Below, piece after piece: positions 1,291-52,758 of a stretch of 59,623 bases of DNA. The position numbers and the translations under genes are program-made. The notes beneath the pieces are model-generated. The model did no database searches, was not told where the DNA came from, and saw only the letters and a program-made list of their open reading frames with translations. Position 1 is the stretch's first letter; each line of letters begins with the position of its first letter. The DNA lies in contig VYCW01000137.1 in the NCBI GenBank assembly GCA_009843735.1, positions 1 through 59,623 on the forward strand, given 5' to 3'. The DNA comes from Acidimicrobiaceae bacterium. GTDB taxonomy: Bacteria > Actinomycetota > Acidimicrobiia > Acidimicrobiales > Aldehydirespiratoraceae.

Positions 1291-2103
1291 TCAGCGCCAG
1301 GAGGTGGCCGCCAGGGCGAGGACGGCGGCTCCGGCCAGAATCCGGTAAACGACGAAGGGCTGGAGGCTTACCCGGGACACGATCCGGGTGGTGCCCCAGA
1401 CGGCCACCCATCCGGTGACGCCCGACGACACCGTGCCCCACGCCAGCGCGGGCCCCAGCGACGAGGGGACGCTCAGCTCCAGGAGGCCGTAGACGCCGGC
1501 ACCGGCGATCACCGGGAGGCTCATCAGGAAAGCGAGGCGCACCGCCGCCTCGCGGCTGTAGCCGAGCGCCCGGGCCACGGTCATGGTCGCACCCGAGCGC
1601 GAGACCCCCGGCTGCAGTGCGAGCGCCTGGCCGGCGCCCATGGCCAGGGCATGGCCGATACCGAAGTCCTGCTGGCTGCGCCGCTCCGCGAGCCGGTCGG
1701 AGGCGCCCAGCAGCAGTCCGAAGATGATCAACGCCAGCGCCACCGGCACCACCGCGTCCGAGTCCCGCAGCGCATCGCCCGCGAACACGCCCACCACGCC
1801 CGCCGGCACCGCGGAGGCCGCCAGGCTCCAGGCGACGCGACCGTCGGGTCCGAGCGGGCCGCGGCCCAGCACCGGCGACAGGGCTGCCCCGACGTACGTT
1901 GCGATGTCCCGGCGGAGGTAGGCGGCCGCACCGATCAGGGTGCCGACGTGCACGGCCACGTCGAAAGCGGTCGCAGTGTCACCCGACAACTCGTCCCAGC
2001 CGAACAGCCAGCGGACCAGGATCAGGTGCCCGCTGGAGGAGATCGGCAGGAACTCCGAGAGGCCCTGCACGATGCCCAGGACGATGGCGTGCAGGATCGG
2101 CAC
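1291..2103 (-). CDS. uppP: Undecaprenyl-diphosphatase UppP (BacA)
   Basis: The protein has 270 residues, the usual family length. The N-terminus carries the family signature GLSEFLPISSSGHL (residues 14-27, with Glu17 and His26). A second signature PGVSRSGATMT lies mid-protein. Multiple hydrophobic helices follow, as expected for the membrane enzyme that dephosphorylates undecaprenyl pyrophosphate to recycle the cell-wall lipid carrier. It starts 21 bases after the stop of tldE on the same strand, so it probably belongs to a tldD-tldE-uppP transcript. Confidence 0.93.
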   Translation of the reverse strand: MPILHAIVLGIVQGLSEFLPISSSGHLILVRWLFGWDELSGDTATAFDVAVHVGTLIGAAAYLRRDIATYVGAALSPVLGRGPLGPDGRVAWSLAASAVPAGVVGVFAGDALRDSDAVVPVALALIIFGLLLGASDRLAERRSQQDFGIGHALAMGAGQALALQPGVSRSGATMTVARALGYSREAAVRLAFLMSLPVIAGAGVYGLLELSVPSSLGPALAWGTVSSGVTGWVAVWGTTRIVSRVSLQPFVVYRILAGAAVLALAATSWR

Positions 2104-2124
2104 CGCAGGACCCGCCCGCCGGCC

Positions 2125-3471
2125 TCAGGTGCCGGACATGGTCACGTCGGCGATGGCGAGGGTCACCCCGGCTGCGCTCATCGGGAGCCACTCCAGGTCC
2201 GACCCCACCTCGGTCACGTCCATCAGCAGCCGCTGGATGGTGCTAGCGATGGTCACCTCCCTGATCGGCTCGGCCGTCTCGCCGTCGCGTATTCGCAGGC
2301 CCTCCGCGCCGACGGAGAAGTCGCCCGACACTGCGTTCACGCCGCTGTGCAGGCCGGTAACCCCCTGCACCAGCAGTCCGTCGTCGATGTCGGACACGAT
2401 CTCGGCCTGGGTGCGGGTCCCGGGCGTGAGCCTCAGGGCCTGGGCGCCGACGCCGGGGGTGCCCTTGAACCCGCCCCTCACCGCCGAGCCGGTGGACGAG
2501 ACGCCGGCCCGCCGAGCGGTGTAGGTGTCGTAGAGGAAGGCCTGGAGCACCCCGTCGGAGATCAACGGCACCCGGCGGGTGGCGAGGCCTTCGGCATCGA
2601 TGGCCGAGGCGGTGAAGGCGTCGGGGTCGGTGGCGTCGTCCACGAGGGTGAGAGACGACGCCCCCACCGCCTCCTCCATGCGGTCGGCGAACAACGACCG
2701 GCCCTTGAGCACGGCGTCACCGCTCAACGTCGCGCCCACGATGCCGAGCAGCCGGGCCGTCACGTACGGATCGAGCACCACCGTCAGGCGGCGGGTGGGG
2801 GCCTTGGCCGCGCCCAGCAGGCGGGTGGCCCGGTCGGCCGCGTCGGCGCCGGCCATCTCGGCCGACAGCTCGCCGGGATGGCGCCCGACCGAGAAGCCGA
2901 ACCCGGTCTGGGTCTCGTCGTTGTCCGACGCCAGGCTGTAGGCGACCAGATAGCAGCCGGTCTCGCGGGCCGAGGCGGCCACGCCCCGCGATGTGGCCAC
3001 CGCTGCCTCATAGGTCGTGTCGGCGTAGTCGGCCGACTCCACGCCGGTCACGCGGGGGTCGGCGGCCACCGTCGCCCGTTCCAGCTCAAGCGCCAGCGCG
3101 ACCTTCTCCTCGGTTCCGAAGTCGACCAGTTCGGATCGGTACAGGTCCAGGGAAGCGGGCTCCACCCCGTCGGGCTCGGCCACTCCCGCGAACTCGTCGA
3201 CGCTGCCGAAGCGGGAGTTGTCGAGCGCCTCGTCGAAGGTCTCCCGCAGCGTCTCGTCGTCCAGGGCCGCGGCGTAGGCGAAGCCCTGCCGTCCGTCGCG
3301 CACGATGCGCACGCCGATCCCCATCGACGACGCCACCGTGAGCGACTCGACCTCGCCCCCATAGGCCCTTATCTCGGTCTCGTGGTCGCGGGCCACGAAG
3401 GCCTCCACGTCGACGCCGTCGCCGGCCCAGCCGACGACCCGCTCCGCGATGTCGAGCAGGCTCTTGCTCAC
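2125..3471 (-). CDS. tldE: Metalloprotease-associated protein TldE (PmbA)
   Basis: The protein has 448 residues, normal for TldE/PmbA. It starts at GTG 3471 (MSKSLLDIAERVVGWAG); an open frame continues further upstream only as a shadow of tldD. The GTG overlaps the tldD stop by 4 bases (GTGA), indicating coupled translation. TldE lacks the zinc motif and partners TldD in a heteromeric peptidase that trims peptides. The conserved central blocks (RAYGGEVESLTVASSMGIGVRIV and the GTPGVGAQALRL-type C-terminal region) are visible. Confidence 0.9.
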   Translation of the reverse strand: MSKSLLDIAERVVGWAGDGVDVEAFVARDHETEIRAYGGEVESLTVASSMGIGVRIVRDGRQGFAYAAALDDETLRETFDEALDNSRFGSVDEFAGVAEPDGVEPASLDLYRSELVDFGTEEKVALALELERATVAADPRVTGVESADYADTTYEAAVATSRGVAASARETGCYLVAYSLASDNDETQTGFGFSVGRHPGELSAEMAGADAADRATRLLGAAKAPTRRLTVVLDPYVTARLLGIVGATLSGDAVLKGRSLFADRMEEAVGASSLTLVDDATDPDAFTASAIDAEGLATRRVPLISDGVLQAFLYDTYTARRAGVSSTGSAVRGGFKGTPGVGAQALRLTPGTRTQAEIVSDIDDGLLVQGVTGLHSGVNAVSGDFSVGAEGLRIRDGETAEPIREVTIASTIQRLLMDVTEVGSDLEWLPMSAAGVTLAIADVTMSGT

Positions 3472-4859
3472 GCGGCGGTGCCGCCGACGGTGAGCGCGGT
3501 CACCCTCAGCGTGGGCGTGCCGTCGCCGACGGGCACACCCTGGCCGTCCTTCCCGCAGGTGCCCGGCGATCCCATGGCGAAGTCGTTGCCGAGGGCGTCT
3601 ATGCGGGTGAGCACGTCGGGTCCGTTGCCGATGAGGTTGCCCTCGCGGATCGGGGCGGTGATCCGGCCGTTCTCGATCAGGTAGGCCTCGGTCATGCCGA
3701 ACACGAAGTCGCCGGTGGCGGTGTTGACCTGGCCACCGCCGAGCTGGGCCACGTACACGCCGTGGGAGGTGTCGGCCACGATGTCGTCGGGCTCCGCGTC
3801 GCCGTTGTCGATGTAGGTGTTGGTCATCCGGACCATGGGCAGGTGCTGGTAGCTCTGGCGGCGCCCGTTGCCGGAGCTGGCCCGGCCCTCCTTGCGGGCC
3901 CTCAGCCGGTCCCACATGTAGTCGGTGAGCACCCCGTCGGCGATGAGCACGTTGCGGGCTGCCGGCTTGCCCTCGTCGTCGATGCCGTAGTGGCCCCACT
4001 CCCCTGCCATCGTGCCGTCGTCGATCAGCGTGACCATGGGCGCGGCCACCGTCTCACCGATGCGCCCCGCGAACACCGAGGCCGACTTGGCCACCAGGTC
4101 GGCCTCCAGGCCGTGCCCGCATGCCTCGTGGAACAGCACGCCGCCGCCCCCGGGGCCGACCACGACCGGCATCTCGCCGCTGGGCGCGGGCCGGGCGGTG
4201 AGCTTGGTGAGAGCCCGCTGCGCGGCCCGGCGGGCCATCTCCTCCACGTCGTAGAGGTCGAACAACTCGAAGCCGGCCGTCCGGCCCGCCGACTCGCGGC
4301 CGGTCTGCATGCCGGTGTCGCCGGTGGCCACGCACGACACCGAGAACAGGGTGCGCACCTGGTCGTCGCTGGTGAACAGCCCGTCGCTGTCGGCCACAAG
4401 AATGCGCCGGCGGCCGTCGCCGTAGCGGGCCGACACCTGGGTGATGGCCGAGCCGGTCGACCGGGCGGCGGCGTCGGCCGCGGTCAGCAGCGCCACCTTC
4501 GTGGACTTGGGCACGTCCTCGGGGGGCACCCGGACGGTGAGCGGTCGCGGCACGTCCAGCGACGACACCTCGACGACCCGCCGGGCGCCGCCCGACTGCC
4601 GGGCCGCGGCCGCGGCCGCGCCGGCCGCGGCGGCCAGGCCGGTCTCGGTCAGGTCCGCGGTGTGGGCGAACCCCGTGGTCTCGCCCACCACCACTCTGAT
4701 CCCGGCACCGCGGTCCCGGCCCGAAACGACCTCCTCGACACGGCCGTCATCGAGGATCGCCGACGACGAGCGCCGGTCCTCCGCGAAGATCTCCGCGAAG
4801 TCCGCTCCGGTGCGCATGGCGACGGAGAGCGTCCGATTAACGAGTTCCGCTTCGAGCAT
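3468..4859 (-). CDS. tldD: Zinc metalloprotease TldD
   Basis: The protein has 463 residues. The zinc motif HEACGH is at residues 244-249, preceded by the glycine-rich GPGGGGVLF. The N-terminus (ADFAEIFAEDRRSS) and the C-terminal MGSPGTCGKDGQGVPVGDG block are typical. With TldE it forms a cytoplasmic protease that degrades unfolded or modified peptides. The ATG at 4859 lies 8 bases after a minus-strand TACAGT box that overlaps the -10 box of the divergent PAP2 gene, so its mRNA is probably leaderless or has only a base or two of leader. Confidence 0.93.
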   Translation of the reverse strand: MLEAELVNRTLSVAMRTGADFAEIFAEDRRSSSAILDDGRVEEVVSGRDRGAGIRVVVGETTGFAHTADLTETGLAAAAGAAAAAARQSGGARRVVEVSSLDVPRPLTVRVPPEDVPKSTKVALLTAADAAARSTGSAITQVSARYGDGRRRILVADSDGLFTSDDQVRTLFSVSCVATGDTGMQTGRESAGRTAGFELFDLYDVEEMARRAAQRALTKLTARPAPSGEMPVVVGPGGGGVLFHEACGHGLEADLVAKSASVFAGRIGETVAAPMVTLIDDGTMAGEWGHYGIDDEGKPAARNVLIADGVLTDYMWDRLRARKEGRASSGNGRRQSYQHLPMVRMTNTYIDNGDAEPDDIVADTSHGVYVAQLGGGQVNTATGDFVFGMTEAYLIENGRITAPIREGNLIGNGPDVLTRIDALGNDFAMGSPGTCGKDGQGVPVGDGTPTLRVTALTVGGTAA

Positions 4860-4866
4860 GAGCGAC

Positions 4867-4873
4867 TACTGTA
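4867..4873. promoter_or_regulatory. Shared bidirectional -10 element (TACTGTA) for tldD and the PAP2 gene
   Basis: On the plus strand TACTGT (4867-4872) is followed by 6 bases and ATG 4879. On the minus strand TACAGT (4873-4868) is followed by 8 bases and ATG 4859. The two start codons are 19 bases apart, so one quasi-symmetric heptamer can serve two nearly leaderless genes. Confidence 0.6.
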
Positions 4874-4878
4874 ACGCG

Positions 4879-5763
4879 ATGGCTTCGGGAGCCGCCGACG
4901 TCGACGCACCCGACGACACGGAGTCGCAAGAGGGCTCGCCGACCGCTTCCGAGGGTCCCCTGCGTTCTCTGAGCGGCCGGCTGCACTGGTGGAGCGAGAT
5001 CCTCATAGTCCTCGGCTTCTACGGCGTGTACACGATGATCCGCAACCTGTTCGGCTCGGAGCTGGGCGCCTCTGTCAAGCAGGCCGCCATCGACAACGCC
5101 TACGACATGATCGCCCTGGAGCGGGCCGTGCACCTCTTCGGTGAGAAGGGCATCCAGGACCTGTTCATAGAGTGGGATCTGTTCATCCAGTTCTGGAACA
5201 TCTTCTACGGGTTCTGCCACTTCGCGGTCACCATCGGGGTGATGCTGCTGCTGTACCTCCGCCATCCGCAGCGGTACGGGGTGCAGCGCACCGTGCTGGC
5301 GTTCACCACCGGCCTGGCGCTGATCGGGTTCGCCTTCTACCCGCTGATGCCGCCCCGCCTGCTCAACGACTGCGGCCCCTTCGGCGCCTGCGACCTCAAG
5401 TACAGCTACGTCGACACCCTGGTCGACCCGGGTGGGTTCTGGTCGTTCAACTCCAGCGCCATGATGGACATCTCCAACCAGTACGCGGCGATGCCCAGCC
5501 TGCACATCGCCTGGGCCATCTGGTGCGTGGTGGCCGCCCTGCCGGTGCTACGGCGCCGGTGGATGCGCCTGGCGCTGCTCTCGTACCCGTGGCTTACACT
5601 GTTCGCGGTGATGGTCACCGCCAACCACTACTGGATCGACGCCGTGGGCGGCCTGCTGGCCGTGGTGATCGCCTATCCGCTGGGAGTGCTGCTGGCCCGC
5701 AGGCTCCCTCCCTGGCTCGCTCCCCGGCCCGTGGGCCCCACGGCGAGCCCTGCCCGCCCGTAA
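4879..5763 (+). CDS. PAP2-superfamily membrane phosphatase/transferase (inositol phosphorylceramide synthase-like)
   Basis: From ATG 4879 the protein has 294 residues; ATG 4858 would add seven residues but overlaps both tldD and the -10 box. It has about six membrane segments. The PAP2_3-type motifs are PSLHIAWA (catalytic His of the second motif) and ANHYWIDAVGG (catalytic His and Asp of the third). This combination occurs in inositol phosphorylceramide synthase-like and phosphatidylinositol-type transferases of Actinobacteria. The substrate is not readable. It is followed after 22 bases by dxs. Confidence 0.8.
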   Translation: MASGAADVDAPDDTESQEGSPTASEGPLRSLSGRLHWWSEILIVLGFYGVYTMIRNLFGSELGASVKQAAIDNAYDMIALERAVHLFGEKGIQDLFIEWDLFIQFWNIFYGFCHFAVTIGVMLLLYLRHPQRYGVQRTVLAFTTGLALIGFAFYPLMPPRLLNDCGPFGACDLKYSYVDTLVDPGGFWSFNSSAMMDISNQYAAMPSLHIAWAIWCVVAALPVLRRRWMRLALLSYPWLTLFAVMVTANHYWIDAVGGLLAVVIAYPLGVLLARRLPPWLAPRPVGPTASPARP

Positions 5764-5785
5764 CCGCATCGAGGAGGGGAATCCG

Positions 5786-7627
5786 ATGCAGCTCGAAGCC
5801 ATAGGTGGTCCCGACGACCTGCGGGAGCGATCCCACGCCGAACTCGACGACCTCTGCCAGCAGATCCGCGCCCGCATCATCGAGGCGGTGTCGGCCCGGG
5901 GCGGGCACCTGGGGTCGAACCTCGGCTCGGTCGAGCTCACCGTCGCCCTGCACCGGGTGTTCCGCTCGCCCCACGACGTGATCCTGTGGGACACCGGCCA
6001 CCAGGCCTACGTCCACAAGATGCTCACCGGGCGGTCGGCCGACTTCGACAGCCTGCGCACCGCGGGAGGGCTGGCCGGCTACCCGTCGAGGACCGAGTCG
6101 CCCCACGACTGGATCGAGAACAGCCACGCCTCGACGGCGCTGTCGTACGCCCACGGCCTGGCCACCGCCTTCGAGTCCTCCGACAACCGCCGCCGGGTTG
6201 TGGCCGTTGTGGGCGACGGGGCCATGACCGGCGGGATGGCCTTCGAGGGGCTCAACAACATCGGCCACAGCGGGCGCCGGGTGGTGGTGGTGCTCAACGA
6301 CAACGGCCGCAGCTACGCCCCGACCGTCTCCCGGCTCACCGAGAGCCTGGTGCGGTTCCGCTCCAACCCCAAGATCATGCGCCGCTCCGACCGCCTCGAG
6401 GAGGTGGCCGAGCGCATCCCCTGGGTGGGCGACACCCTCCAGCGGGGCATGCGGATGTCCAAGGCCGCCATCCGGGAACTGTGGGACTCGGCCGGCTTCT
6501 TCGAGAACCTGGGGCTGCGCTACCTGGGGCCCTTCGACGGCCACGACATCGCCGGCCTGGAGGAGGCCCTGTCCAACGCGGCCCAGTTCGATGAGCCCGT
6601 GGTGGTGCACGTGCTCACCCAGAAGGGTCGGGGCTACGGACCGGCCGAACAGGACCAGATCAAGCACATGCACGACGTCGGCAAGGTCAAGCCGGGCACC
6701 TACACCGGCATGTTCTCCGACGTGATGGTCAAGCTCGGCGGGCTGCACCCCGAGGTGGTGGCCATCACCGCGGCCATGCCCGACTCCACCGGGCTGCTGC
6801 CGTTCCGGGAGCACTTCGGCGACCGCTGCATCGACGTCGGCATCGCCGAGCAGCACGCGGTGACCTCGGCCGTGGGCATGGCCATGGGCGGGCTGCGGCC
6901 CTTCTTCGCGGTCTACAGCACGTTCCTGAGCCGAGCCTTCGACCAGGTCAACCTGGACTGCGGGCTGCACCGAGCCCCGGTGGTGTTCTGCATCGACCGG
7001 GCCGGGATCACCGGCGACGACGGACCGTCCCACCACGGGATCCTCGACATGGTGCTGCTCACCAAGGTGCCGGGGATGGTGGTGCTGGCGCCGTCGTCGC
7101 TGGAGGAGCTCGAGCAGATGATGCTCGACGCCATCGACATGACCGGCGGGCCGGTCGCCATCCGCTGGCCCAAGACGGCGGCCCGCAGCGTGAGCCGGGA
7201 CCAGGTCGGATCGGGGCTTCGGGCTCGCAAGGCCCGCTCCGGCGACGGCCGGCTGTGCCTCATCGGCGTGGGCAAGATGCTGGAGGCCTGCGAGCAGGCC
7301 GCCGAGATGCTGGAGAACGAGGGCGTGGACGCCACCGTGTGGGACCCCCGGGCGGTGACCCCGGTGTGCCCGAAGATGGTGGCCGACGCGGTCGAGTGCG
7401 ATCTGGTGGTGACGGTGGAGGACGGGCTGCGCACCGGCGGCGCGGGCACCGGCATCCGCGACGCGCTGATGGAGCGGGCCGAGGCCGCCGGCCAGGCCGC
7501 TCCCAGGGTGCGGGTGCTGGGCGTGCCCCTCGACTACCTGCCCCACGGCAAGCCCGACCAGATCCTGGCCGACCTGGGCCTGGACGCGGCCGGCATCGCG
7601 GCCACCGTCAAGTCGGAGCTGCTGTAG
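5786..7627 (+). CDS. dxs: 1-deoxy-D-xylulose-5-phosphate synthase
   Basis: The protein has 613 residues. DXS makes 1-deoxyxylulose 5-phosphate from pyruvate and glyceraldehyde 3-phosphate in the cytoplasm, the entry step of the MEP isoprenoid pathway. Visible are the N-terminal SRGGHLGSNLG-like segment, GHQAY near residue 71, the ThDP/Mg motif VVGDGAMTGGMAFEGLNN, the catalytic GIAEQHAV, and the C-terminal transketolase domain ending PLDYLPHGKPDQIL. A GAGGAGGGG Shine-Dalgarno precedes the ATG. It shares a transcript with the PAP2 gene; uppP, which acts on a polyprenyl carrier, is also close by. Confidence 0.95.
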   Translation: MQLEAIGGPDDLRERSHAELDDLCQQIRARIIEAVSARGGHLGSNLGSVELTVALHRVFRSPHDVILWDTGHQAYVHKMLTGRSADFDSLRTAGGLAGYPSRTESPHDWIENSHASTALSYAHGLATAFESSDNRRRVVAVVGDGAMTGGMAFEGLNNIGHSGRRVVVVLNDNGRSYAPTVSRLTESLVRFRSNPKIMRRSDRLEEVAERIPWVGDTLQRGMRMSKAAIRELWDSAGFFENLGLRYLGPFDGHDIAGLEEALSNAAQFDEPVVVHVLTQKGRGYGPAEQDQIKHMHDVGKVKPGTYTGMFSDVMVKLGGLHPEVVAITAAMPDSTGLLPFREHFGDRCIDVGIAEQHAVTSAVGMAMGGLRPFFAVYSTFLSRAFDQVNLDCGLHRAPVVFCIDRAGITGDDGPSHHGILDMVLLTKVPGMVVLAPSSLEELEQMMLDAIDMTGGPVAIRWPKTAARSVSRDQVGSGLRARKARSGDGRLCLIGVGKMLEACEQAAEMLENEGVDATVWDPRAVTPVCPKMVADAVECDLVVTVEDGLRTGGAGTGIRDALMERAEAAGQAAPRVRVLGVPLDYLPHGKPDQILADLGLDAAGIAATVKSELL

Positions 7628-7639
7628 GGAGTCTTCCCT

Positions 7640-8314
7640 CTAGCTGAAGTAGGGGTTCTCCCCGGCCTCGTGGTCGGTGACGTCGATCACGTCGGTCACC
7701 TCTGCGATGGCCTCCATGATGGCCCGCTTGATCCCGTCGGACAGAGTGGCCTGGCTCATGGCGCAGCCCTGGCAGCCGCCGCCCATGGTGACCACCACCG
7801 AGTCGTCGTCGTTCACGTCGACGAGGCTGGCGTACCCGCCGTGGGAGGCCAGTGCGGGGTTGATGCTCATGTCGAGCAGTTGCTGCACCTTCTCGGCGAT
7901 GCTGCCGGTGAGGTCCAGGCGTCCCATGTCGCCCAGCGGGTTGGGGCGGTTGGGGTTTCGGATCACCAGCCCGCCCTGACCGGGAATCGACGGCACGTCC
8001 AGGGTTGAGCCCCGGAGCCGGCTGACGCTGGCGTCGGGCACGACCACCGTCAGACCATCCGAATCGTGAATGTGGTCGTCGGGGGCCGCGTCGGCCACCG
8101 GGTCGAGCGTCAGGTCGTAGGTGTAGTCGATCCCGGCGGTGCCGGTCACCTCGACGCGCAGTCCCAACGTGTCGCCGTCCTCCTCGCGGTCACGGATGGA
8201 CAGAACCGCGGTGCGGGCCGCGTCGGTGACGATCAGGATCTCCTCGCCCGATGTGGCTGCGGTCTCGGCGGGTTCGCCGGCGGGCGCTTCCGTCGGAGCG
8301 GCGGTATCGGTCAC
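7640..8314 (-). CDS. nfuA: Iron-sulfur carrier protein NfuA-like (HesB-like plus NifU C-terminal domain)
   Basis: The protein has 224 residues. After an Ala/Thr/Glu-rich tail of about 25 residues comes an IscA/HesB-like degenerate domain (IVTDAARTAVLSIRDRE). The NifU C-terminal domain carries the cluster-binding CQGC at 181-184 in GGGCQGCAMSQ. NfuA delivers 4Fe-4S clusters to client enzymes. It starts with GTG 8314, 7 bases after a minus-strand TAGGCT box (8327-8322), consistent with a leaderless mRNA. It is convergent with dxs and divergent from the crotonase gene. Confidence 0.9.
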   Translation of the reverse strand: MTDTAAPTEAPAGEPAETAATSGEEILIVTDAARTAVLSIRDREEDGDTLGLRVEVTGTAGIDYTYDLTLDPVADAAPDDHIHDSDGLTVVVPDASVSRLRGSTLDVPSIPGQGGLVIRNPNRPNPLGDMGRLDLTGSIAEKVQQLLDMSINPALASHGGYASLVDVNDDDSVVVTMGGGCQGCAMSQATLSDGIKRAIMEAIAEVTDVIDVTDHEAGENPYFS

Positions 8315-8321
8315 GGATCTG

Positions 8322-8327
8322 AGCCTA
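8322..8327 (-). promoter_or_regulatory. Leaderless -10 box TAGGCT for nfuA
   Basis: TAGGCT, 7 bases, then GTG at 8314. It has the same geometry as the other TANNNT-N6-8-start sites in this window. Confidence 0.5.
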
Positions 8328-8372
8328 CCGAGGGCTCACGGACCTTCCTGCGGGCCGTGCCTGCGCTCGCGA

Positions 8373-8378
8373 TACGGT
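8373..8378 (+). promoter_or_regulatory. Leaderless -10 box TACGGT for the crotonase gene
   Basis: TACGGT, 6 bases, then ATG at 8385; no Shine-Dalgarno fits between them. Confidence 0.55.
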
Positions 8379-8384
8379 GCGGGC

Positions 8385-9086
8385 ATGACCGCGAAGACCT
8401 CCTTTGAGATCACCGACGGCGTGGCCGTCCTGCGCCTCGACGACGGCAAGGCCAATGCCGTCGGCTACGACACGCTCGAGTCCATCGACGCTGCCCTCAC
8501 CGAAGCCGAGCAGAGCGCGGGGGCCCTGATGATCGAGGGTCGGGAGGGCCGCTTCAGCGCCGGCTTCGACCTGAGCGTGATCGGCGAGGGCCCCGAGGCC
8601 GCCCAGGCGCTGGTGGCCGCGGGGGCCCGCACCGCGGCGCGGATCTACGGGGCGCAGGTGCCGGTGGTAGCTGCATGCACCGGCCACGCCTTGGCGTTCG
8701 GGGCGATCATGCTGCTGTCCAGCGATGTGCGCATCGGCGCCGACGTCGAGGCCAAGATCGGGCTCACCGAGGTGTCCATCGGCATGCCGCTGCCCATCTT
8801 CGCGGTGGAGCTGGCCCGGGACCGGCTCAGTCCCCGGCACTTCACCGCGGCGACGTCGCTGGCCACCGTGTTCTCGCCCCGCGGCGCGGTCGAGGCCGGA
8901 TACCTCGACGAGGTGGTCGCCGCCGACGACCTCCACGACGCCGCACTCGAACGGGCCGGCGCGCTGGCCGGCTATGTGCGCCGGACCGCGTTCGGCCTGA
9001 CCCGCCGCACCACCCGGAAGGCGACCATCGACAACATCCTCTCGACGCTCGACGAGAACATCAAGAGCTTCGGCGTGCTGGATTGA
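8385..9086 (+). CDS. Enoyl-CoA hydratase/isomerase (crotonase) family protein
   Basis: The protein has 233 residues. The first oxyanion-hole segment is EGREGRFSAGFDLSVI; the second, ACTGHALAFGAIMLLSSDVRIGA, is the conserved G-x-A-x-G-like block. The family works on acyl-CoA thioesters (hydration, isomerisation, hydrolysis or decarboxylation). The usual catalytic glutamates of true enoyl-CoA hydratases are not obvious, so the exact reaction is open. The C-terminus (TTRKATIDNILSTLDENIKSF) is typical of short actinobacterial members annotated crotonase/enoyl-CoA hydratase. It is transcribed alone from a leaderless start. Confidence 0.8.
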   Translation: MTAKTSFEITDGVAVLRLDDGKANAVGYDTLESIDAALTEAEQSAGALMIEGREGRFSAGFDLSVIGEGPEAAQALVAAGARTAARIYGAQVPVVAACTGHALAFGAIMLLSSDVRIGADVEAKIGLTEVSIGMPLPIFAVELARDRLSPRHFTAATSLATVFSPRGAVEAGYLDEVVAADDLHDAALERAGALAGYVRRTAFGLTRRTTRKATIDNILSTLDENIKSFGVLD

Positions 9087-9159
9087 CCTGCCTCCTCCCT
9101 GGGTTCCCGCCTGTGGACGATCTGTGGACAACTCTGGTAGGCCTGTGGATCGAGTGGGG

Positions 9160-10176
9160 ATGACATCACCGGCGTACGACTCCGTGCTGCTGGTGTCGTT
9201 CGGCGGTCCGGAGGGCCCCGCCGACGTCGAGCCGTTCCTCGCCAACGTCACTGCCGGGCGGCGGGTCCCCGCCGATCGGCTGGAGGCGGTGGCCCGGCAG
9301 TACCACCACTTCGGCGGGATCAGCCCCCTCAACGAACAGTGCCGCCGCCTGCGCGACGCTCTGGCCGCAAGGCTCGCAGCCTCGGGCCACGAGCTGCCGG
9401 TGTACTGGGGGAACCGCAACTGGACCCCCTACCTGGCCGACGCCGTGGCCGAGATGGCCGCGGCCGGGCACCGCCGGGCCCTCGCTCTCGTGACCTCCGC
9501 ATACTCGTCGTACTCGGGCTGCCGCCAGTACCTCGACGACATCGCGGCCGCTCGGGCCTCGGCTGGCGGGACCGCACCCGCCATCGACAAGGTCCGCGCC
9601 TACTACGACCATCCGGGCTTCATCGCGCCCTTCGTCGACGCGGTCGCTGAGGCCCGTATGAATCTGCCCGCTGAAGTGCGCTCGGGGGCGCGGCTGGTGT
9701 TCACCGCCCACTCGATCCCCGAGTCGATGGCCGCCAGCTGCGACTACGAGCGCCAACTGGGCGAGACGGCTCGCCTGGTGGCGGCCGGTGCCGGCTTCGA
9801 CGGCTGGACCATGGCCTGGCAGAGCCGCAGCGGACCACCCTCCGTGCCGTGGCTGGAGCCCGATGTGAACGACTGCCTGCGGGAGCTGTCCAGCCGGGGC
9901 GCAGCCGCGGTGGTGCTCGCCCCCATCGGCTTCATCACCGACCATATGGAGGTCATGTGGGACCTGGACGTGGTGGCGGCCGGCACTGCCGCCGACCTCG
10001 GCCTTCGGCAAGCGCGGGCCACCACTCCCGGCACGGGGCCCGACGATCGCTTCGTGGCCATGTGGCAGGAACTGGTCGAGGAGCGCCTCGATCCCGCCAA
10101 GGTCCGTCGCTCGCTCGGTCGTCTCGGAACGGGCCCGGACCGCTGCCCGGACAGCTGCTGCCCGCTGCGAACCTAG
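9160..10176 (+). CDS. hemH: Ferrochelatase (coproporphyrin/protoporphyrin type)
   Basis: The protein has 338 residues and begins MTSPAYDSVLLVSFGGPEGP, the family start. It inserts Fe(II) into the porphyrin ring at the end of haem synthesis. The catalytic His is in FTAHSIPESM; the SAYSSYSGCRQY and APIGFITDHMEVMWDLD blocks are also conserved. The C-terminus RCPDSCCP, together with earlier cysteines, could ligate the 2Fe-2S cluster known in actinobacterial coproporphyrin ferrochelatases. The Glu in MEVMWDLD corresponds to the conserved metal-handling region. Confidence 0.93.
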   Translation: MTSPAYDSVLLVSFGGPEGPADVEPFLANVTAGRRVPADRLEAVARQYHHFGGISPLNEQCRRLRDALAARLAASGHELPVYWGNRNWTPYLADAVAEMAAAGHRRALALVTSAYSSYSGCRQYLDDIAAARASAGGTAPAIDKVRAYYDHPGFIAPFVDAVAEARMNLPAEVRSGARLVFTAHSIPESMAASCDYERQLGETARLVAAGAGFDGWTMAWQSRSGPPSVPWLEPDVNDCLRELSSRGAAAVVLAPIGFITDHMEVMWDLDVVAAGTAADLGLRQARATTPGTGPDDRFVAMWQELVEERLDPAKVRRSLGRLGTGPDRCPDSCCPLRT

Positions 10177-44092: not shown

Positions 44093-44382
44093 GACGCGAG
44101 CCGATCGACGTGCCGGCCTACTTCGCTCAGCGGCACGCGCAGATGGTGGAGTGGCGGCATCACCTGCACCGGATCCCCGAGTTGGCGTTCGATGAGCACA
44201 AGACGGCTGGCTTCGTCGCCGACCGCCTCGCTTCGTGGGGGGTGGAGGTGCACACTGGCCTCGCCGGCACCGGGGTCGTGGGGATGGTCGGGTCCGGCGA
44301 CGGACCGAGCATCGGGTTGCGGGCCGACATGGACGCGCTGGCGATCGAGCCCACTGAACAGAGCACCCCGTACGGGATTTGA
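44089..44382 (+). pseudogene. M20-family amidohydrolase, truncated at the right att-like repeat
   Basis: Only 97 codons remain: the typical start (WRHHLHRIPELAFDEHKTAG) and the first metal motif GLRADMDALAIEPTEQSTPY. The reading then enters the direct repeat (TACGGGATTTGA) and stops. Full-length M20 proteins have about 400 residues and continue to HACGHD. The missing part is not found downstream in the window, so the gene was cut by integration or recombination here. Confidence 0.85.
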
Positions 44383-44420
44383 ACCCGCTTGTGCCGCCAT
44401 GTGCCACGGTGTGCCTTAGT
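44363..44420 (+). other. Right att-like direct repeat next to the integrase
   Basis: GCACCCCGTACGGGATTTGA (44363-44382) repeats 13291-13311. GGTGTGCCTTAGT (44408-44420) repeats the flanking block. On the minus strand GCGGGTTCAAATCCCGT would fold as a tRNA T-arm with a 7-base loop, but no CCA end or other tRNA arms exist. A 10-bp palindrome AGTCATGACT follows. The site lies 90-160 bases before the integrase, a usual place for attL or attP arms. Confidence 0.6.
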
Positions 44421-44474
44421 CAGTCATGACTAGTAGGTCAAAGACGATATTTCGCGGTCCGACTGGTCGGAGAC

Positions 44475-45686
44475 TTGTGTCGCCAGGTGTCGCTCAGTAT
44501 CCTGCAATGCCTCTCAAAATATAATAATGTAAAGGATACCAATGGACCGGCCCAGACGCTCACCGCCGCCTTCTTGCGTACTGTCAACAAGCCCGGAAGG
44601 TACGGAGACGGAAGGGGCGGCTACGGGCTCAGCTTGCTCGTGCGCGCCACTCGCAACGGCCGGCTGTCCAAGACCTGGAGCCAACGCCTATACAACAATG
44701 GCAAACCAGCGATGGTCGGCTTGGGCAGCTACCCGATCGTCACGCTTGCGGAGGCACGGGCCAAGTGCATGGAGAACCGCCGCGCCATCGAACATGGCCG
44801 CGACCTGCGGTCACCGGCGATGCCGACCGTCGCCGAGGCACTGGAGCGTGTGATCGAGACCCGTGAGCAGCACTGGCGCAACCCGCGCACGGCCAAGGCC
44901 TGGCGGTCCTCGGTGCACAACCATGCCGCCGCCATCATCGATCGCCGCGTCGACCAAGTAAGCACCGCCGATGTCTTGGCTGTGCTCAACCCGGTGTGGA
45001 CCGCGAAGCCCGAACTTGGCCGCAAGCTGCGCCAGCGACTGTCGATGGCATTCAGGTGGGCAGTCGCCGCGAACCACATCGCCACCAACCCCGCAGGCGA
45101 CGCCTTAGCGGGTGTGTTGCCCCGCAACGCCGGCAACGGCGGCCACTTCGACTCGCTACCCGCGAGCGAAGTCCCGGCCGCTTTGGGCACCATCGACGCC
45201 AGCGCCGCGTTCTGGTCGACCAAGGCCGCCATCAGGATGCTGGCTTTGACCGCCACCCGCTCAGGCGAAGTACGCGGCATGCGTTGGGACGAGATCAACG
45301 GCAGCGTGTGGACCATCCCCGCGGACAGAACCAAGACCGCCAAACCTCAGCGGGTGCCGCTGTCATCCGCGGCGCTGGCGGTGCTGGGGCAGGCCCGCAC
45401 CCTCAGCGACGACAGCGGATATGTGTTCCCGAACCGGCGCGGCCGCCAGACCACCGTAGAGGCGCTGTCGAAGTTGTGCCGCGATCAGGGCTTGGCCATG
45501 ACACCGCACGGCCTGCGATCCTCGTTCCGCAGTTGGTGCGCCGAACAAGGCATCTCCCGCGGAGTGGCCGAAATGAGTCTCGGCCACGTCGTGCGAGGTG
45601 TAGAAGGCGCCTACCAGCGCTCAGACCTCCTCGACGCCCGGGCCGAGGTCATGGAGCAATGGGGCCAATACCTCTCCGGCATCTGA
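44475..45686 (+). CDS. Tyrosine recombinase/integrase (DUF4102 + catalytic domain), 5' end uncertain
   Basis: The frame has 403 residues. It contains the N-terminal DUF4102 domain (YGLSLLVRATRNG; PAMVGLGSYPIVTLAEARAK) and a catalytic domain with Arg in TRSGEVRG, H-x-x-R in HGLRSSFR, His in LGHVVRG and the Tyr in GAYQRSD. In-frame starts (TTG 44475, GTG 44487) lie upstream of a perfect TATAAT. The best start signal, AAAGGA five bases before ATG 44542, is in another frame. A one-base loss just after that ATG would explain this, so the gene may be frameshifted at its start. Confidence 0.85.
   Translation: MCRQVSLSILQCLSKYNNVKDTNGPAQTLTAAFLRTVNKPGRYGDGRGGYGLSLLVRATRNGRLSKTWSQRLYNNGKPAMVGLGSYPIVTLAEARAKCMENRRAIEHGRDLRSPAMPTVAEALERVIETREQHWRNPRTAKAWRSSVHNHAAAIIDRRVDQVSTADVLAVLNPVWTAKPELGRKLRQRLSMAFRWAVAANHIATNPAGDALAGVLPRNAGNGGHFDSLPASEVPAALGTIDASAAFWSTKAAIRMLALTATRSGEVRGMRWDEINGSVWTIPADRTKTAKPQRVPLSSAALAVLGQARTLSDDSGYVFPNRRGRQTTVEALSKLCRDQGLAMTPHGLRSSFRSWCAEQGISRGVAEMSLGHVVRGVEGAYQRSDLLDARAEVMEQWGQYLSGI
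44520..44536 (+). promoter_or_regulatory. TATAAT -10 box and AAAGGA ribosome site before ATG 44542
   Basis: TATAAT at 44520-44525 and AAAGGA at 44531-44536, then 5 bases and ATG 44542. This is the strongest promoter/RBS match in the window, yet ATG 44542 opens a frame different from the integrase. Confidence 0.6.
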
Positions 45687-46975: not shown

Positions 46976-47614
46976 ATGAAAGTTTCGGCACCGTCGCTCG
47001 CGCCGATCCTGCGCTCGGATGCGCAGGGCCGCATCCTGGCGCGGGTGCTCGTCGATCCGGAGAAGAGGCACAGCTTGTCGGACTTGGTCACCTGGTCGAA
47101 GACCTCGATGCCCACGGTCACACGCGAGGTCCGGCGAGCCGAGGAGGCTGGCATAGTGGTCACCGAGAAGGTCGGCCCTATCCGGTTTGTGCGCGCCGGG
47201 GTTGACCATCCTCTGTACGACTCCGTGCGTCGGATCATCCTTGCCACCTACGGCCCGCCGGTCGTGGTGGCTGAGGAGTTCGCAGATGTGGAGGGCGCTG
47301 ATGCCGTCCTGCTGTTCGGCTCATGGGCCGCACGGTATGCGGGCGAGCCCGGCAGAGCGCCCAACGACGTTGACGTGCTCGTGGTCGGCAGCGCCGACCG
47401 CGATGTCGTGGACGAGGCCGCGGAGCGAGTCGAGCGACGGATCGGCATGCCGGTGCAGGCCACCGTGCGGACTCGCTCGCAGTGGGAATCCGGCCGAGAG
47501 AGTTTCATCCTCGAGATCAAGTCCCGAACAATGGTGCCCGTCCTCGCGGACATCGAACAGCCATCCGCACCCGTACCTGGTGCGCTCGAGTCTCGAGGAG
47601 GCAAAGCCCCGTGA
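46976..47614 (+). CDS. MNT-type nucleotidyltransferase antitoxin with N-terminal winged helix
   Basis: The protein has 212 residues. Residues about 10-75 form a winged helix (LARVLVDPEKRHSLSDLVTW; TVTREVRRAEEAGIV). Residues about 100-190 form a minimal nucleotidyltransferase with GS (115-116) and Asp131/Asp133 in APNDVDVLVVG. Such proteins can inactivate HEPN toxins by nucleotide transfer, and the winged helix can autoregulate. It overlaps the HEPN gene as GTGA. Confidence 0.85.
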   Translation: MKVSAPSLAPILRSDAQGRILARVLVDPEKRHSLSDLVTWSKTSMPTVTREVRRAEEAGIVVTEKVGPIRFVRAGVDHPLYDSVRRIILATYGPPVVVAEEFADVEGADAVLLFGSWAARYAGEPGRAPNDVDVLVVGSADRDVVDEAAERVERRIGMPVQATVRTRSQWESGRESFILEIKSRTMVPVLADIEQPSAPVPGALESRGGKAP

Positions 47615-48087
47615 GCTGGGCGCGCGGACGCGCAGATGTGGAGCAGTTGATCACCGACGGCGAGCTCGAGCGGGTGAGGCCCTCTGTCGAGGTGGCGGCC
47701 CGCCTGCTTGCTGATGCCGGCGCGCACATCAGCCTCGCTTCCAAAGGCATTGAAGAGGATCCCGCCGGTGCACTTCAGCTTTGCTACGACGCCGCCCGCA
47801 AGGCGGCAACCGCTCTCCTCGCGGTGCAGGGGCTGCGAGCCACGTCCCGAGGGGGCCACATCGCTGTGATTGATGCCGTCCGCGTCCAATTCAACGATGA
47901 GGGCGGGATGGCGATATTTGGGCGATTGCACGCTCTGCGTCGACGTCGCAACCGTTCCGAGTATCCCGACGATGAGTCGCCGGGTGTCAACGAGGATGAC
48001 GCCCGCAGGGCGCTCGACACCGCCCGGGCTGTACTCCAGGCCGCCGAGCAACTCCTAGGCAGCGGGCGTCTCGGCATCTTCGGCTAA
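47611..48087 (+). CDS. HEPN-domain toxin partner of the MNT protein
   Basis: The protein has 158 residues from GTG 47611. It is all-helical with AALQLCYDAARKAATALLAV-like helices (residues 53-72). The motif is LRRRRNRSEYPDD near 109-121; the RN...Y pattern stands where many HEPN ribonucleases have Rx4-6H. Coupling to an MNT gene is the classic type VII arrangement. Loss of the canonical His could mean altered or weak RNase activity. Confidence 0.75.
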   Translation: MSWARGRADVEQLITDGELERVRPSVEVAARLLADAGAHISLASKGIEEDPAGALQLCYDAARKAATALLAVQGLRATSRGGHIAVIDAVRVQFNDEGGMAIFGRLHALRRRRNRSEYPDDESPGVNEDDARRALDTARAVLQAAEQLLGSGRLGIFG

Positions 48088-48441
48088 GACTCGAGATCAT
48101 CAAGGGTCAGCCGGTCCCATGGCCGTCGCCCGCTCCACCAATCGGCCTCGTCAACCGGACGCGCCCCACACGCCTCAACGCCGCCGAAACGCGCCTCCCC
48201 GCCGCCGCCAACGGCACGCCGTCCCCGCCACTCAACGGCCACACCCCCGTTGAACCTCCCGGCGACAGCCAGCCGAAGCGGCCCTGTGTTGCCGCCCGGA
48301 GACACTGATGCGTCGACAACCGGTTGAGTTGCTGGCGATTCAGAGGATGCGTTCCTGGCTGCCGCGTGCCGGGTTTCGTGATCCGGTGTCGGGGCTGTGA
48401 CCGGAGGCGTCGACAGTGGTCGGCTCGACTGTTGGCGGGTG

Positions 48442-48456
48442 CGTTCGCGAGCGTTC
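48442..48456 (+). repeat. Two CGTTC motifs 10 bp apart (GCGTTCGCGA x2)
   Basis: CGTTC at 48442 and 48452, within tandem 10-mers 48441-48460. It is part of a family of phased arrays also at 48586, 49645 and 50214. Confidence 0.7.
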
Positions 48457-48505
48457 GCGATGGGCGTTGGTGGGGTGGTTTGGCCACCACACGTTTGCAC
48501 TAAAG
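48451..48505 (+). repeat. Inverted repeat flanking the K+ channel, left copy
   Basis: About 49 of 55 positions match the reverse complement of 49761-49815, with one 1-base gap. The conserved centre is GGGGTGGTTTGGCC followed by CCACACG. Confidence 0.8.
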
Positions 48506-48585
48506 AGCCCGCCCAGGCCAGGGGGGGGGACCCGACGCGAATGACGGGCCGCGGCGCCTCAGTCTGGTGCCGTCGGGGGGCCGAA

Positions 48586-48610
48586 GAACGCACTGGAACG
48601 CAGAGGAACG
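48586..48610 (-). repeat. Three GAACG motifs at 10-bp intervals
   Basis: GAACG at 48586, 48596 and 48606; this is the CGTTC array read on the minus strand, just downstream of the channel gene. Confidence 0.75.
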
Positions 48611-48641
48611 CTGTGGTGGCAACGGTGTATTTCGATATGTG

Positions 48642-49418
48642 TCAGATTGGGGTTTGCTCCGTCCCAGCGGTCAACTGTCTCAGTTCGTCAATGGCAGCTT
48701 GTAGCTGTTCAAGTCGGTCACTGATGTCCTGCTCCGGCTGTCGTTGCTTTGTTATCGCGGCTGCGACATTCGCGGTCACGACCCCGAACGCGGCTATCCC
48801 GGTGACCATGAGCACCGCGGCGATGAGGCGGCCCTCCGTTGTCGCCGGGGCGATGTCGCCGTAGCCGACGGTGGTGACGGTAGTGATGGCCCACCATGCG
48901 GCGTCTCCGTAGTGGTCGATGGCACCGTTGCTGTCTTCCTCGACCAGCCACACTCCGGCTGAACCGGCTGCGAGGATGACCGGTATCACCACTATCACGG
49001 CGCGCCCGGCGAGGCCTCCCCACAGGCGAAGAGCCGTTTGCCAGATGCTGGTGGCGTAGACGGTCACGCGGGCTGCCCGCAGGACGCGTAGCGCTCTCGC
49101 GGAGCGCAGAATCCGTAGAGGCCGGAAGTAGGGCAGCACCGACAGAACGACGATGCCGACGTCGTACCAGTGCGAAGCTAGGTACTGCCGTCGGCTGCCG
49201 CGGGCGAACCAGACCCGGACGGCTAGGTCAACGGCGAACAGTCCCCATATTGCCCAGTTGGCAACTATCGCCGCCAGCGCCACTGCCCCCTGTGTGGTGT
49301 CTTCCAGCACGACAAGTGGAACGCTGGCCAGCGCGAGAACCAGCAGGGGAACATCGGCGGCCTGCTCCCAACGGGCCATCGCACTAGGCGCGCTTCGATT
49401 GGGGTTATCCGCGGTCAT
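48642..49418 (-). CDS. Voltage-gated-type potassium channel
   Basis: The protein has 258 residues. Six membrane segments are predicted, including an S4-like helix with regularly spaced arginines (RPLRILRSARALRVLRAARV, residues 99-118). The pore has WWAITTVTTVGYGD with the K+ selectivity filter TVGYGD at 183-188. A short C-terminal coiled coil (ISDRLEQLQAAIDELRQL) could hold the tetramer together. It stands alone inside the defence island, flanked by inverted repeats. Confidence 0.92.
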   Translation of the reverse strand: MTADNPNRSAPSAMARWEQAADVPLLVLALASVPLVVLEDTTQGAVALAAIVANWAIWGLFAVDLAVRVWFARGSRRQYLASHWYDVGIVVLSVLPYFRPLRILRSARALRVLRAARVTVYATSIWQTALRLWGGLAGRAVIVVIPVILAAGSAGVWLVEEDSNGAIDHYGDAAWWAITTVTTVGYGDIAPATTEGRLIAAVLMVTGIAAFGVVTANVAAAITKQRQPEQDISDRLEQLQAAIDELRQLTAGTEQTPI

Positions 49419-49644
49419 AGGCTCGTCTCCTTCGGTGGACTTGCTCTCATCTAGCAGAGACGGTCAGCGTGGGTGCCAAGTCCGCCCCGAAACGGGGGAA
49501 GCAGCAGGTCCCTGCTCCCTGCTGGAGCGTTCGGCGGACGAACCGGGGGCAGCCCAAGGGGGGTCACGCTGAACGGGCTGGCCGAATTACGCAATTCGTC
49601 AATCCAAGAATCGAAAGTACCGATATGTAACGTCATCGCAACGG

Positions 49645-49680
49645 CGTTCACGCGTGCGTTCCTCAGCGTTCCGTACGTTC
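49645..49680 (+). repeat. Four CGTTC motifs at 9-12-bp intervals
   Basis: CGTTC at 49645, 49657, 49667 and 49676, upstream of the K+ channel gene. Confidence 0.7.
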
Positions 49681-49760
49681 CTCGGGCCGAAGACGACGCC
49701 GTTCGATGCTCGGACAGGGACTGTTCGACTATCGAACGACCTTGATGTTCGAGGGCGGCA

Positions 49761-49815
49761 CTTCTAGTGCAAGCGTGTGGCGGCCAAACCACCCCGAAAC
49801 GCCCAACGCGAACGC
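49761..49815 (-). repeat. Inverted repeat flanking the K+ channel, right copy
   Basis: Reverse complement of 48451-48505 at about 90% identity; the pair encloses 1.36 kb containing only the channel gene and CGTTC arrays. Confidence 0.8.
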
Positions 49816-50213
49816 ACCCCCCACCACAACCCATCGCACCGACCATTCGACCACCTCGACCCGGACTCCATGGGTCACTTCCGCATCCGTCACCGTCCAA
49901 CCGGCCGAACGCAGCCATTCAAGGACACCAACGGGCACTTGCAGCACACCGCAGTCAGTCGCCGCCGCAGCCCTCGCTCATGGGGCGCAGCACCGGGCGC
50001 TGGTCGAGGAGTTCGTCGCCTGTAGCGGCCGATACATCGTCGAGACCTGCGTGAAGCTGTTGGACCACCTCGGCTGTTGTTGTGGCCCGCCGGGTGTGTG
50101 TGCATGGTCCTGTGGCTGTGGGCTGTCGCTGGGTGTCACGGTGACCAGCCTGGCCACTCTGGCCGTGAATGGCACTGTCGAAGGCGTCGGAAGACCCGCC
50201 CTTGGCCCGATCG

Positions 50214-50248
50214 CGTTCGCGAGCGTTCCTGAGCGTTCCTTTGCGTTC
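50214..50248 (+). repeat. Four CGTTC motifs at exactly 10-bp intervals
   Basis: CGTTC at 50214, 50224, 50234 and 50244; two units are the perfect tandem GAGCGTTCCT. It lies 270 bases before the AlpA-like gene. Confidence 0.8.
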
Positions 50249-50273: not shown

Positions 50274-50363
50274 ATGACCACCCGATCAAACTGCCCGGTC
50301 CCCACCGCAAGGACCTGCGCCATCTGTGGCGGCGCAGGCACACCACCGTCGCTGTGCCGCTGA
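50274..50363 (+). CDS. Possible 29-residue Cys-rich peptide
   Basis: It reads MTTRSNCPVPTARTCAICGG then AGTPPSLCR. Four cysteines (C-x7-C-x2-C-x9-C) could form a zinc knuckle. GGGGG lies just upstream of the ATG. It follows the fourth CGTTC array. Coding status is uncertain. Confidence 0.25.
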   Translation: MTTRSNCPVPTARTCAICGGAGTPPSLCR

Positions 50364-50515: not shown

Positions 50516-50725
50516 ATGTCACCGAGAGTGTCCACCGAAGCCATGTTGCGCGTTCCCGACGTGCTTGACCGCGTCGGCGTCAGCCGACGCACGCTGTGTC
50601 GATGGCGCGCCGACGGCACATTCCCCCAAGCCCTCAGGCTGGGGACGAACTCCATCGGCTGGCCCCGCCATGTCGTCGACGAGTGGCTCGCCAACCGGCC
50701 CCCCGCGGGCGCTCAACATCCCTAG
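50516..50725 (+). CDS. AlpA/excisionase-like helix-turn-helix protein
   Basis: The protein has 69 residues from ATG 50516 with GGGAG 6 bases upstream. MLRVPDVLDRVGVSRRTLCR and WRADGTFPQALRLGTNSIGW, then HVVDEWLANRP, match the MerR-like HTH of AlpA regulators and excisionases. Such proteins control integrase expression or excision of integrated elements, in keeping with the integrase 5 kb away. Confidence 0.88.
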   Translation: MSPRVSTEAMLRVPDVLDRVGVSRRTLCRWRADGTFPQALRLGTNSIGWPRHVVDEWLANRPPAGAQHP

Positions 50726-50961: not shown

Positions 50962-52758
50962 TTGACGCCACAAGACCAAGATCTGGCTCAGCTCTTCGAC
51001 GGGAAGCTCGTCTACATCGTCCCGAACTACCAGAGGCTCTACGTCTGGAATCGCGACAACCAGTGGGAACCCCTGTGGTTTGACGTCCAAGACATCGCTG
51101 AGAGAATCATCGAGAACGCCGCTGGGACTGAACTCGCTGATGACGACCATGACGTAGTAGAGCCCCATTTCATGGGTGCGGCCGTGTTCAAGATAAGTGG
51201 GGCCACCCCCGACCTAGCAAAGAGATATCGCGTCATCGACGGGCAGCAGCGCCTGACGACGCTTCAGATTCTGATGGCCGCGGCGGCGTCCGCCCTCGAC
51301 GTGGCCGGCCTTACCGAGCCCGCCGACAACCTCCGCAGCTACACCATCAATGATTCAGCGACTCAGCCCCTGAAGATTCAATACCAGAGGCACAGGAGCG
51401 GCCATGACTATGAACGCTTCCCCGATGTCATGGACGCGGCGCGTGACGGCGATAGCAATCCCAGTATCGATGGTCCCATGGCCGACTGCTATCGATACTT
51501 CAAGAACGAGATCCACAAGTGGCTCCGCCTCCATGGCGACCGGATCAACGTGGCGGGCACCGCGCTCGTGCGGACGCTCGCTCTGAAGCTCCTTGTAGTC
51601 GCCATCTATCTGGATCCCCACGAGAAGGAGCATGCGATCTTCGAGAGCCTGAATGCTCGCGGAGAGCCGCTGACTGAATGGGACAAGATTAAGAACTATC
51701 TGCTGTACAAGGCGGACGAGGACCGCCACCTGAGCCAAGAGACGTTCTTCGAGCAGTATCTGGATGCCTTCGATGATCCCTGGTGGCGTCAACTGATCGG
51801 GCACGGCGTCCAGAGACCTCGGGTCGATGTTTTCGTCGACTACTGGCTCGAGGCTCAGACCGGCACGTCTGTTGCGGTGCGGCGAGTGTTCCGCGAGTTC
51901 CAGCATTACGTGGATCCGAGAGACGATCGCCTCAAAGAGATCATGGAACAGCTGCTGGACGACGCACGCTACTTCAGGGAGTCAGAGACGGTGGAGTCTG
52001 GGGCAAGCGGCCGCGAAGCGCTGTTCCACGAACGCCGCCTAGCGATGGGAGCTCGTGCGGTATGGCCGCTACTGCTGAAGCTGCGACACCTGGATGTCGA
52101 CACAGATGACCGCGAGGCGTGCTTCGAAGCCCTCGAGAGTTACCTCGTGCGCAGGCTGATAGCCGGGTACCAGGCGCGCAGCTACGACCAGGTCGCCCTG
52201 GAGCTGATCGAAGCCCTATCCGAACAGGCTCTGACCCCCGAGGGGCCGAGCAAGGCAATACGCACGCACCTCTTGGCCTACTCGGAGAACGCGAATCTGT
52301 GGCCGAACGACGCGGCCACAATCCAGGCTGTCTCGCAGCGGCATCTCGCGTTGTACGCACGACGCCTAGTGCTGACCGCCTTGGAGAGGCACCTGATCAC
52401 ATCGCAGGCGGGCAACCAGAGTGTTCCCGCCGGCCTCCACGTGGAACACCTCTTGCCCCAAGGATGGGGGCCGCAAGAGTGGCCGCTGCCGAGCGGGATC
52501 GACCCGGCACAGGCACAGGAGGAACGAACTCAGGCGCTCGCCACGCTAGGGAACCTGACTCTGCTAAACGCGCCACTGAACTCGTCCGTCAGCAACAGGG
52601 CGTGGACCGTAAAGCGCGAGAAGATACAGGAGTCCGACAACCTGTTCTTGAACCGGCGGCTCCTTAAGGAATACGGCGACCGGTGGACCGAGGACGACAT
52701 TGAGCAGCGCGGACGCTGGATGGGCGACATGATCGTCAAGATCTGGCCGCGTGAGTGA
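50962..52758 (+). CDS. GmrSD-type DUF262/DUF1524 restriction protein
   Basis: The protein has 598 residues. It starts with TTG 50962, supported by GGAGGT 8 bases upstream. The DUF262 domain carries PNYQRLYVWN (21-30) and the ParB-like nucleotide site DGQQRLTT (93-100). The DUF1524 His-Me-type nuclease domain carries LHVEHLLPQGWG (His493, His496) and LGNLTLLNAPLNSSVSNRAW. Family members use NTP-dependent recognition to cut modified phage DNA (type IV restriction). Single-chain GmrSD fusions of this size are common. The other defence-type genes around it support that role. Confidence 0.9.
   Translation: MTPQDQDLAQLFDGKLVYIVPNYQRLYVWNRDNQWEPLWFDVQDIAERIIENAAGTELADDDHDVVEPHFMGAAVFKISGATPDLAKRYRVIDGQQRLTTLQILMAAAASALDVAGLTEPADNLRSYTINDSATQPLKIQYQRHRSGHDYERFPDVMDAARDGDSNPSIDGPMADCYRYFKNEIHKWLRLHGDRINVAGTALVRTLALKLLVVAIYLDPHEKEHAIFESLNARGEPLTEWDKIKNYLLYKADEDRHLSQETFFEQYLDAFDDPWWRQLIGHGVQRPRVDVFVDYWLEAQTGTSVAVRRVFREFQHYVDPRDDRLKEIMEQLLDDARYFRESETVESGASGREALFHERRLAMGARAVWPLLLKLRHLDVDTDDREACFEALESYLVRRLIAGYQARSYDQVALELIEALSEQALTPEGPSKAIRTHLLAYSENANLWPNDAATIQAVSQRHLALYARRLVLTALERHLITSQAGNQSVPAGLHVEHLLPQGWGPQEWPLPSGIDPAQAQEERTQALATLGNLTLLNAPLNSSVSNRAWTVKREKIQESDNLFLNRRLLKEYGDRWTEDDIEQRGRWMGDMIVKIWPRE

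Follow-up and report, generated by a model that had tools for sequence, protein, structure and literature searches.

What is the function of the pentamer CGTTC, which recurs at a spacing of about one helical turn in several short arrays of this contig? The arrays occupy 1.8 kb of the window, by which we mean the whole stretch of 59,623 nucleotides that was analyzed, and the original prediction took them for iterons or cooperative protein-binding sites, such as a replication or transfer origin, a partition site, or a regulator array of an integrated element.

Phased CGTTC arrays in the window

CGTTC was present at every position for which it had been claimed, starting at 48442 and 48452; at 49645, 49657, 49667, and 49676; and at 50214, 50224, 50234, and 50244, with its complement GAACG starting at 48586, 48596, and 48606. 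Three of the arrays keep a spacing of precisely 10 bp. In the array at 49645-49680 it is 12/10/9 bp, and the phasing is therefore helical rather than exactly 10 bp throughout. The pair CGTTC-N5-CGTTC was observed seven times in the window against an expectation of 0.20, and none of 100 shuffles reached seven. To allow for the choice of CGTTC after the sequence had been seen, we also searched for runs of at least four copies of any pentamer at any period from 8 to 14 bp; the GCGTT/CGTTC run at 50213 was the only one in the window, and 40 simulated first-order Markov sequences contained none. Across the 3.43-Mb genome, the triple phased motif occurs three times, each time in the arrays of this region (reversed-pattern control, 0), so that phased CGTTC is not equally dense in the rest of the genome. 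The longer pair GCGTTC-N4-GCGTTC occurs 10 times genome-wide: seven at the window arrays, one in a third copy of the repeat unit described below (contig C63), and two in apparently ordinary genes. The arrays are thus real and non-random. A coding repeat was rejected as their source, since a period of 10 is no multiple of a codon.

The features of the element and its arrays are as follows.

44475-45686, + strand: tyrosine integrase (Arm-DNA-bind_3, Phage_int_M, and Phage_integrase domains), with homologues near such units in other genomes
46976-48087, + strand: candidate defence system PDC-M05 A and B, encoded as cargo by two ORFs that overlap
48441-48457, + strand: left-hand part of array A, a pair of CGTTC at 10-bp spacing (GCGTTCGCGAGCGTTCG)
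48472-48514, + strand: core of unit A (GGGGTGGTTTGGCCACCACACGTTTGCACTAAAG...), inverted copy of 49753-49795
48581-48612, - strand: right-hand part of array A, GAACG three times at 10-bp spacing when read on the + strand, CGTTC when read on the - strand
48642-49418, - strand: K+ channel-like gene (Ion_trans / Ion_trans_2), between inverted units A and B
49645-49681, + strand: array B, CGTTC four times with spacings of 12/10/9 bp; read along the unit (- strand), this is the GAACG array that follows the core
49753-49826, - strand: core of unit B with upstream CGTTCGCG; CCACACGCTTGCACTAGA at 49763-49780, GAACG at 49810 on the + strand
50213-50248, + strand: array C, GCGTTC four times at a constant 10-bp period
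50516-50725, + strand: AlpA-like wHTH protein (Phage_AlpA), ATG at 50516 with an in-frame GTG upstream at 50492; proposed array-binding regulator or excisionase
50962-52758, + strand: defence cargo matching the PADLOC Orf5, HEC-06, and type IV restriction models

Arrays A (48.4-48.6 kb, + strand) and B (49.6-49.8 kb, - strand) belong to two inverted copies of one unit, a relationship that the original prediction had overlooked. The inverted arms, 43 nt each (48472-48514 and 49753-49795), are 84% identical, and the unit runs from a forward CGTTC array through a conserved core, CCACACGYTTGCACTA (written GGGTGGTTTGGCCRCCACACGYTTGCACTA as the motif in units A and B), and a spacer to a reverse GAACG array. 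The arrays do surround the K+ channel gene and precede the AlpA-like gene: A and B flank the channel, and C lies 25 bp before an ATG at 50274 and ~270 bp before the AlpA ATG, a layout similar to that of locus L121 in another genome (G466). Because A faces the 3′ side of the channel gene and B lies ~230 bp from its start, these two are unlike simple promoter operators. A scan of the region for sigma-70 promoters found none of the usual consensus, and no match to an Rfam structured RNA reached the gathering score. An SOS/LexA box was rejected on inspection, as the CGAAC-N4-GTTCG spacing was not seen.

No relaxase or type IV secretion system (T4SS) was recognized between 44475 and 59623, where the contig ends. 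With an integrase, AlpA, defence cargo, and no recognized transfer genes in the part seen, the window element may be a mobilisable or decayed member of its element family. The sequence at 44371-44390 resembles the 3′ end of an antisense tRNA. Its neighbors are the integrase and a truncated ORF for an M20-type hydrolase, and it is a possible attL; ARAGORN found no tRNA in the window. A BLAST comparison of the region with phages and plasmids returned a short ion-channel match only, and a search for the core in viral contigs returned none.

The unit in other Acidimicrobiia

Relatives were found by a class-wide DNA search and by using the core as a pattern in 345 genomes of the class. The core pattern was present in eight of these genomes, its conservation being partly a matter of ascertainment because the core was itself the search pattern, and the array pattern was present in five, all among the eight that carry the core (reversed-pattern control, 0). 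The unit and its arrays thus recur in related elements, where the original prediction had proposed to look for them; the unit-bearing genomes with a group name are Acidimicrobiaceae, Acidimicrobiales, or Acidimicrobiia MAGs. In one genus, the core sits within a discrete repeat of ~280 bp that comprises the core, the palindrome TGCCCAC-N-GTGGGCA, and CGAACG repeats mostly 11 bp apart. Despite this sequence drift, the repeat spacing stays near one turn, with a mode of 10 bp in window-type units and 11 bp in the other type.

The surroundings of the unit are also shared. An AlpA-like gene directly follows the ~280-bp repeat in several loci, and in L109-L111 the array is directly upstream of AlpA. 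Locus L121 repeats the order found in the window, with a unit, a forward CGTTC array ~500 bp upstream of AlpA, and an AlpA 49% identical to that of the window. In other genomes, many of the AlpA genes next to units are truncated copies. Integrases homologous to that of the window often lie within a few kb of the units (~43-51% identity over most of their length), and the cargo nearby includes a DNA methyltransferase, AbiEii, SIR2-type proteins, and, on C63, type I-U/G Cas proteins.

Contig C63 (locus L020) comes from the window's own genome (G000) and carries type I-U/G Cas3, Cas5-6, and Cas7 genes at 1705-9567, with the third unit copy at the contig end together with an IS110-like transposase fragment. 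The fragment suggested that the unit might be the end of an IS110 element, an idea that was dropped because the unit recurs beside AlpA without IS110. Elsewhere, the core occurs without arrays as CCACACGTTTGCAC, ~50-60 bp before a small ORF (L054/L123 and L058), and AbiEii-like genes lie near in L122 and L123.

A related ICE, on contig C47 of genome G344, carries a window-type integrase, a TrwC relaxase, ArdC, a VirB4-like AAA_10 protein, a coupling protein, a class II ribonucleotide reductase (RNR), and AlpA, so that both the relaxase and the T4SS that were not recognized in the window are present. Its phased CGAACG arrays end ~5-59 bp before candidate start codons of four genes: the MobF relaxase, AlpA, the class II RNR (for which there are two such starts), and an ORF that precedes the genes for the VirB4-like and coupling proteins. 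The core is present only at the AlpA array, and the other arrays lack it.

Candidate roles of the arrays

We consider it probable, though well short of certain, that the arrays are operators of an integrase-AlpA ICE/IME regulon in Acidimicrobiia, cooperatively bound by a protein of the element, probably its AlpA. The main reason for this reading is the placement of arrays before transfer genes in the G344 ICE, the one element from which this evidence comes. Of the options in the original prediction, a regulator array of the integrated element is the one that the evidence favors: these arrays are a feature of a family of integrase-AlpA elements and, in a related ICE, stand before several genes for transfer. 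In the mechanism we propose, one protomer would bind each GCGTTC/GAACG repeat, and the one-turn spacing would place all protomers on one face of the DNA, allowing cooperative head-to-tail binding and probably DNA bending. The AlpA-like winged-helix protein would control its own promoter and, in complete ICEs, also those of the relaxase, ribonucleotide reductase, and T4SS/coupling-protein genes, which it may activate or repress. The family would then consist of ICEs and their cargo-carrying relatives.

As to the binding protein, among the small DNA-binding proteins encoded near units AlpA is present in the window, L121, and the G344 ICE. In several loci AlpA is followed by an RHH-like protein, which has a weak NikA-like match and is absent from these same three; RHH-like and XRE-like proteins were both rejected as the binder, being absent from the window element. 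The window AlpA is predicted to have a winged-helix fold: the solved folds nearest to its structure model (mean pLDDT 78) in a Foldseek search were GIsul2 Xis, RdfS in second place, Pukovnik Xis, and BldC bound to DNA, with modest E-values (best, 2.5e-3). Synteny, shared presence, and fold thus speak circumstantially for the AlpA link that had been suggested.

An oriT or relaxosome-accessory site, with the arrays bound by an accessory protein near nic, would accord with the array that the G344 ICE has 33 bp ahead of its MobF relaxase start and with the NikA-like RHH protein that follows AlpA in several loci. The same ICE, however, also has arrays before the RNR, AlpA, and T4SS region, and the RHH gene is missing from the window, L121, and this ICE; we regard this role as very improbable.

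The arrays could also be iterons, to which an initiator would bind while the element is excised and replicating. This reading is kept alive by the 10-bp GCGTTC-N4 array being common in phage contigs (>100) near a start motif resembling that of replisome organisers; in the phage examples read, the array falls within an ORF whose beginning resembles that of a replisome organiser, and a related record carries this annotation. That start motif, however, is absent from the window, the G344 ICE, and the unit-bearing loci, and an initiator adjoining a single array cluster, as expected of an iteron origin, is not the arrangement here: there are several arrays per element, those of the ICE stand at about four separate promoters, and those of the window are not beside a recognized replication or relaxase gene. 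The earlier suggestion of a replication or transfer origin as such is therefore not upheld, and we judge origin iterons to be distinctly unlikely. The phage-contig arrays (L176-L255; for example, L178 at 6450-6684, L204, and L253) come from contigs of very different G+C contents and are often paired 200-250 bp apart, with the replisome-organiser-like start motif near in 41 of 80 loci. They are candidate origin iterons inside an initiator gene.

What the operator reading leaves unexplained is the arrangement of units in convergent pairs around cargo. All eight adjacent pairs (L096, L097, L098, L102, L103, L104, L110, and 48487/49780 in the window) are convergent, 1.3-4.4 kb apart, and enclose cargo, some of which is shared between pairs, so that the pairs concerned are not independent; the L110 pair encloses little beyond AlpA and the RHH-like protein. 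Such pairs would fit a role of the unit as a recombination site, its core and phased arrays resembling attP with a core and arm-type sites, through which the segment enclosed by two units would be moved or inverted by integrase and AlpA. The structure of the unit, a conserved core between opposed arrays, fits this reading. So does a comparison of L098 (3802-8211) with L102 (508-3680), from two genomes: the units are 99-100% identical, the outer flanks are unrelated, and the inside is partly different, with a 1240-bp insert in L098 that begins exactly at the inner end of the array. This pattern could reflect recombination at the units or selection on them, and homologous recombination between repeats or strong selection would leave similar boundaries. 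Against a recombination site, arrays of this type without a core stand upstream of the transfer genes of the G344 ICE, no empty site or inverted state was found at a core, and the sole junction seen lies ~80 bp from the core, in a remnant. Empty-site comparisons gave no clean junction for L101 and no comparable genome for L111. We therefore hold a recombination site to be unlikely. The same doubtful standing applies to a broader form of the idea, in which unit pairs are boundaries of site-specific recombination or of cassettes: integrase and AlpA would act at the core to swap individual defence or accessory modules (e.g., the K+ channel) from element to element or to invert them, and the arrays would serve both as accessory sites and as operators. 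Both origin iterons and recombination sites are thus less likely than operators.

Relation to known operators and significance

Direct repeats spaced by about one helical turn are the reported binding sites of recombination directionality factors (RDFs; PMC7498355). The arrays share with RDF/AlpA-type operators one-turn direct repeats, an element-encoded wHTH protein (AlpA/Xis), and repeats upstream of the regulator gene; repeats at att beside the integrase, also typical of such operators, are lacking in the window element and the G344 ICE. No CGTTC/GAACG cluster was found near 44370-44475, the integrase end of the window element, or near the integrase of the ICE, so that an excisionase role at att is unsupported. 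This lowers the reading of the arrays as excisionase sites, but not the reading that they work like RDF-type operators.

A search of the literature on ICEs of Acidimicrobiia yielded almost nothing. Because several proteins of this fold have little preference for particular sequences, the operators of small winged-helix excisionases and activators can escape detection. The phased motif described here can be searched for and appears to label an entire regulon of mobile elements in Acidimicrobiia, relaxase and T4SS genes included; it offers a pattern for finding such elements and makes the control of conjugation and defence-cargo mobility by AlpA directly testable.

Among individual systems, ICEclc has an alpA promoter at the early alpA-bisDC node of its transfer-competence regulon; unlike the proposed regulon, its late promoters depend on BisDC, and the parts of the source consulted do not describe phased CGTTC arrays (PMC9286271). 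RdfS is, like the proposed regulator, a wHTH excisionase, and its ICE, ICEMlSym(R7A), has a tyrosine integrase; conjugation requires RdfS, which binds promoters of the element, including that of its own gene. It differs in binding at attP and in having no consensus motif, and the portion of the report consulted describes no phased CGTTC arrays (PMC11963761). BldC of Streptomyces is a small wHTH protein whose cooperative multimers line up head to tail on direct repeats, although its repeats are 9 bp and AT-rich and it is a chromosomal developmental regulator (PMC5859096). A strict CGTTC motif is therefore unusual for the AlpA fold, RdfS being without a sequence motif (PMC11963761) and BldC preferring AT-rich repeats (PMC5859096). 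The arrays also resemble the operators of phage 186 Apl and other RDFs, where promoters and att each hold several direct repeats at intervals of 10-11 bp, bound cooperatively (PMC7498355). The present arrays differ in their well-conserved CGTTC, in lying on both sides of a conserved core and at conjugation genes, and in their absence from the integrase end. Most likely, they are a variant of the known one-turn-spaced excisionase/AlpA operators.
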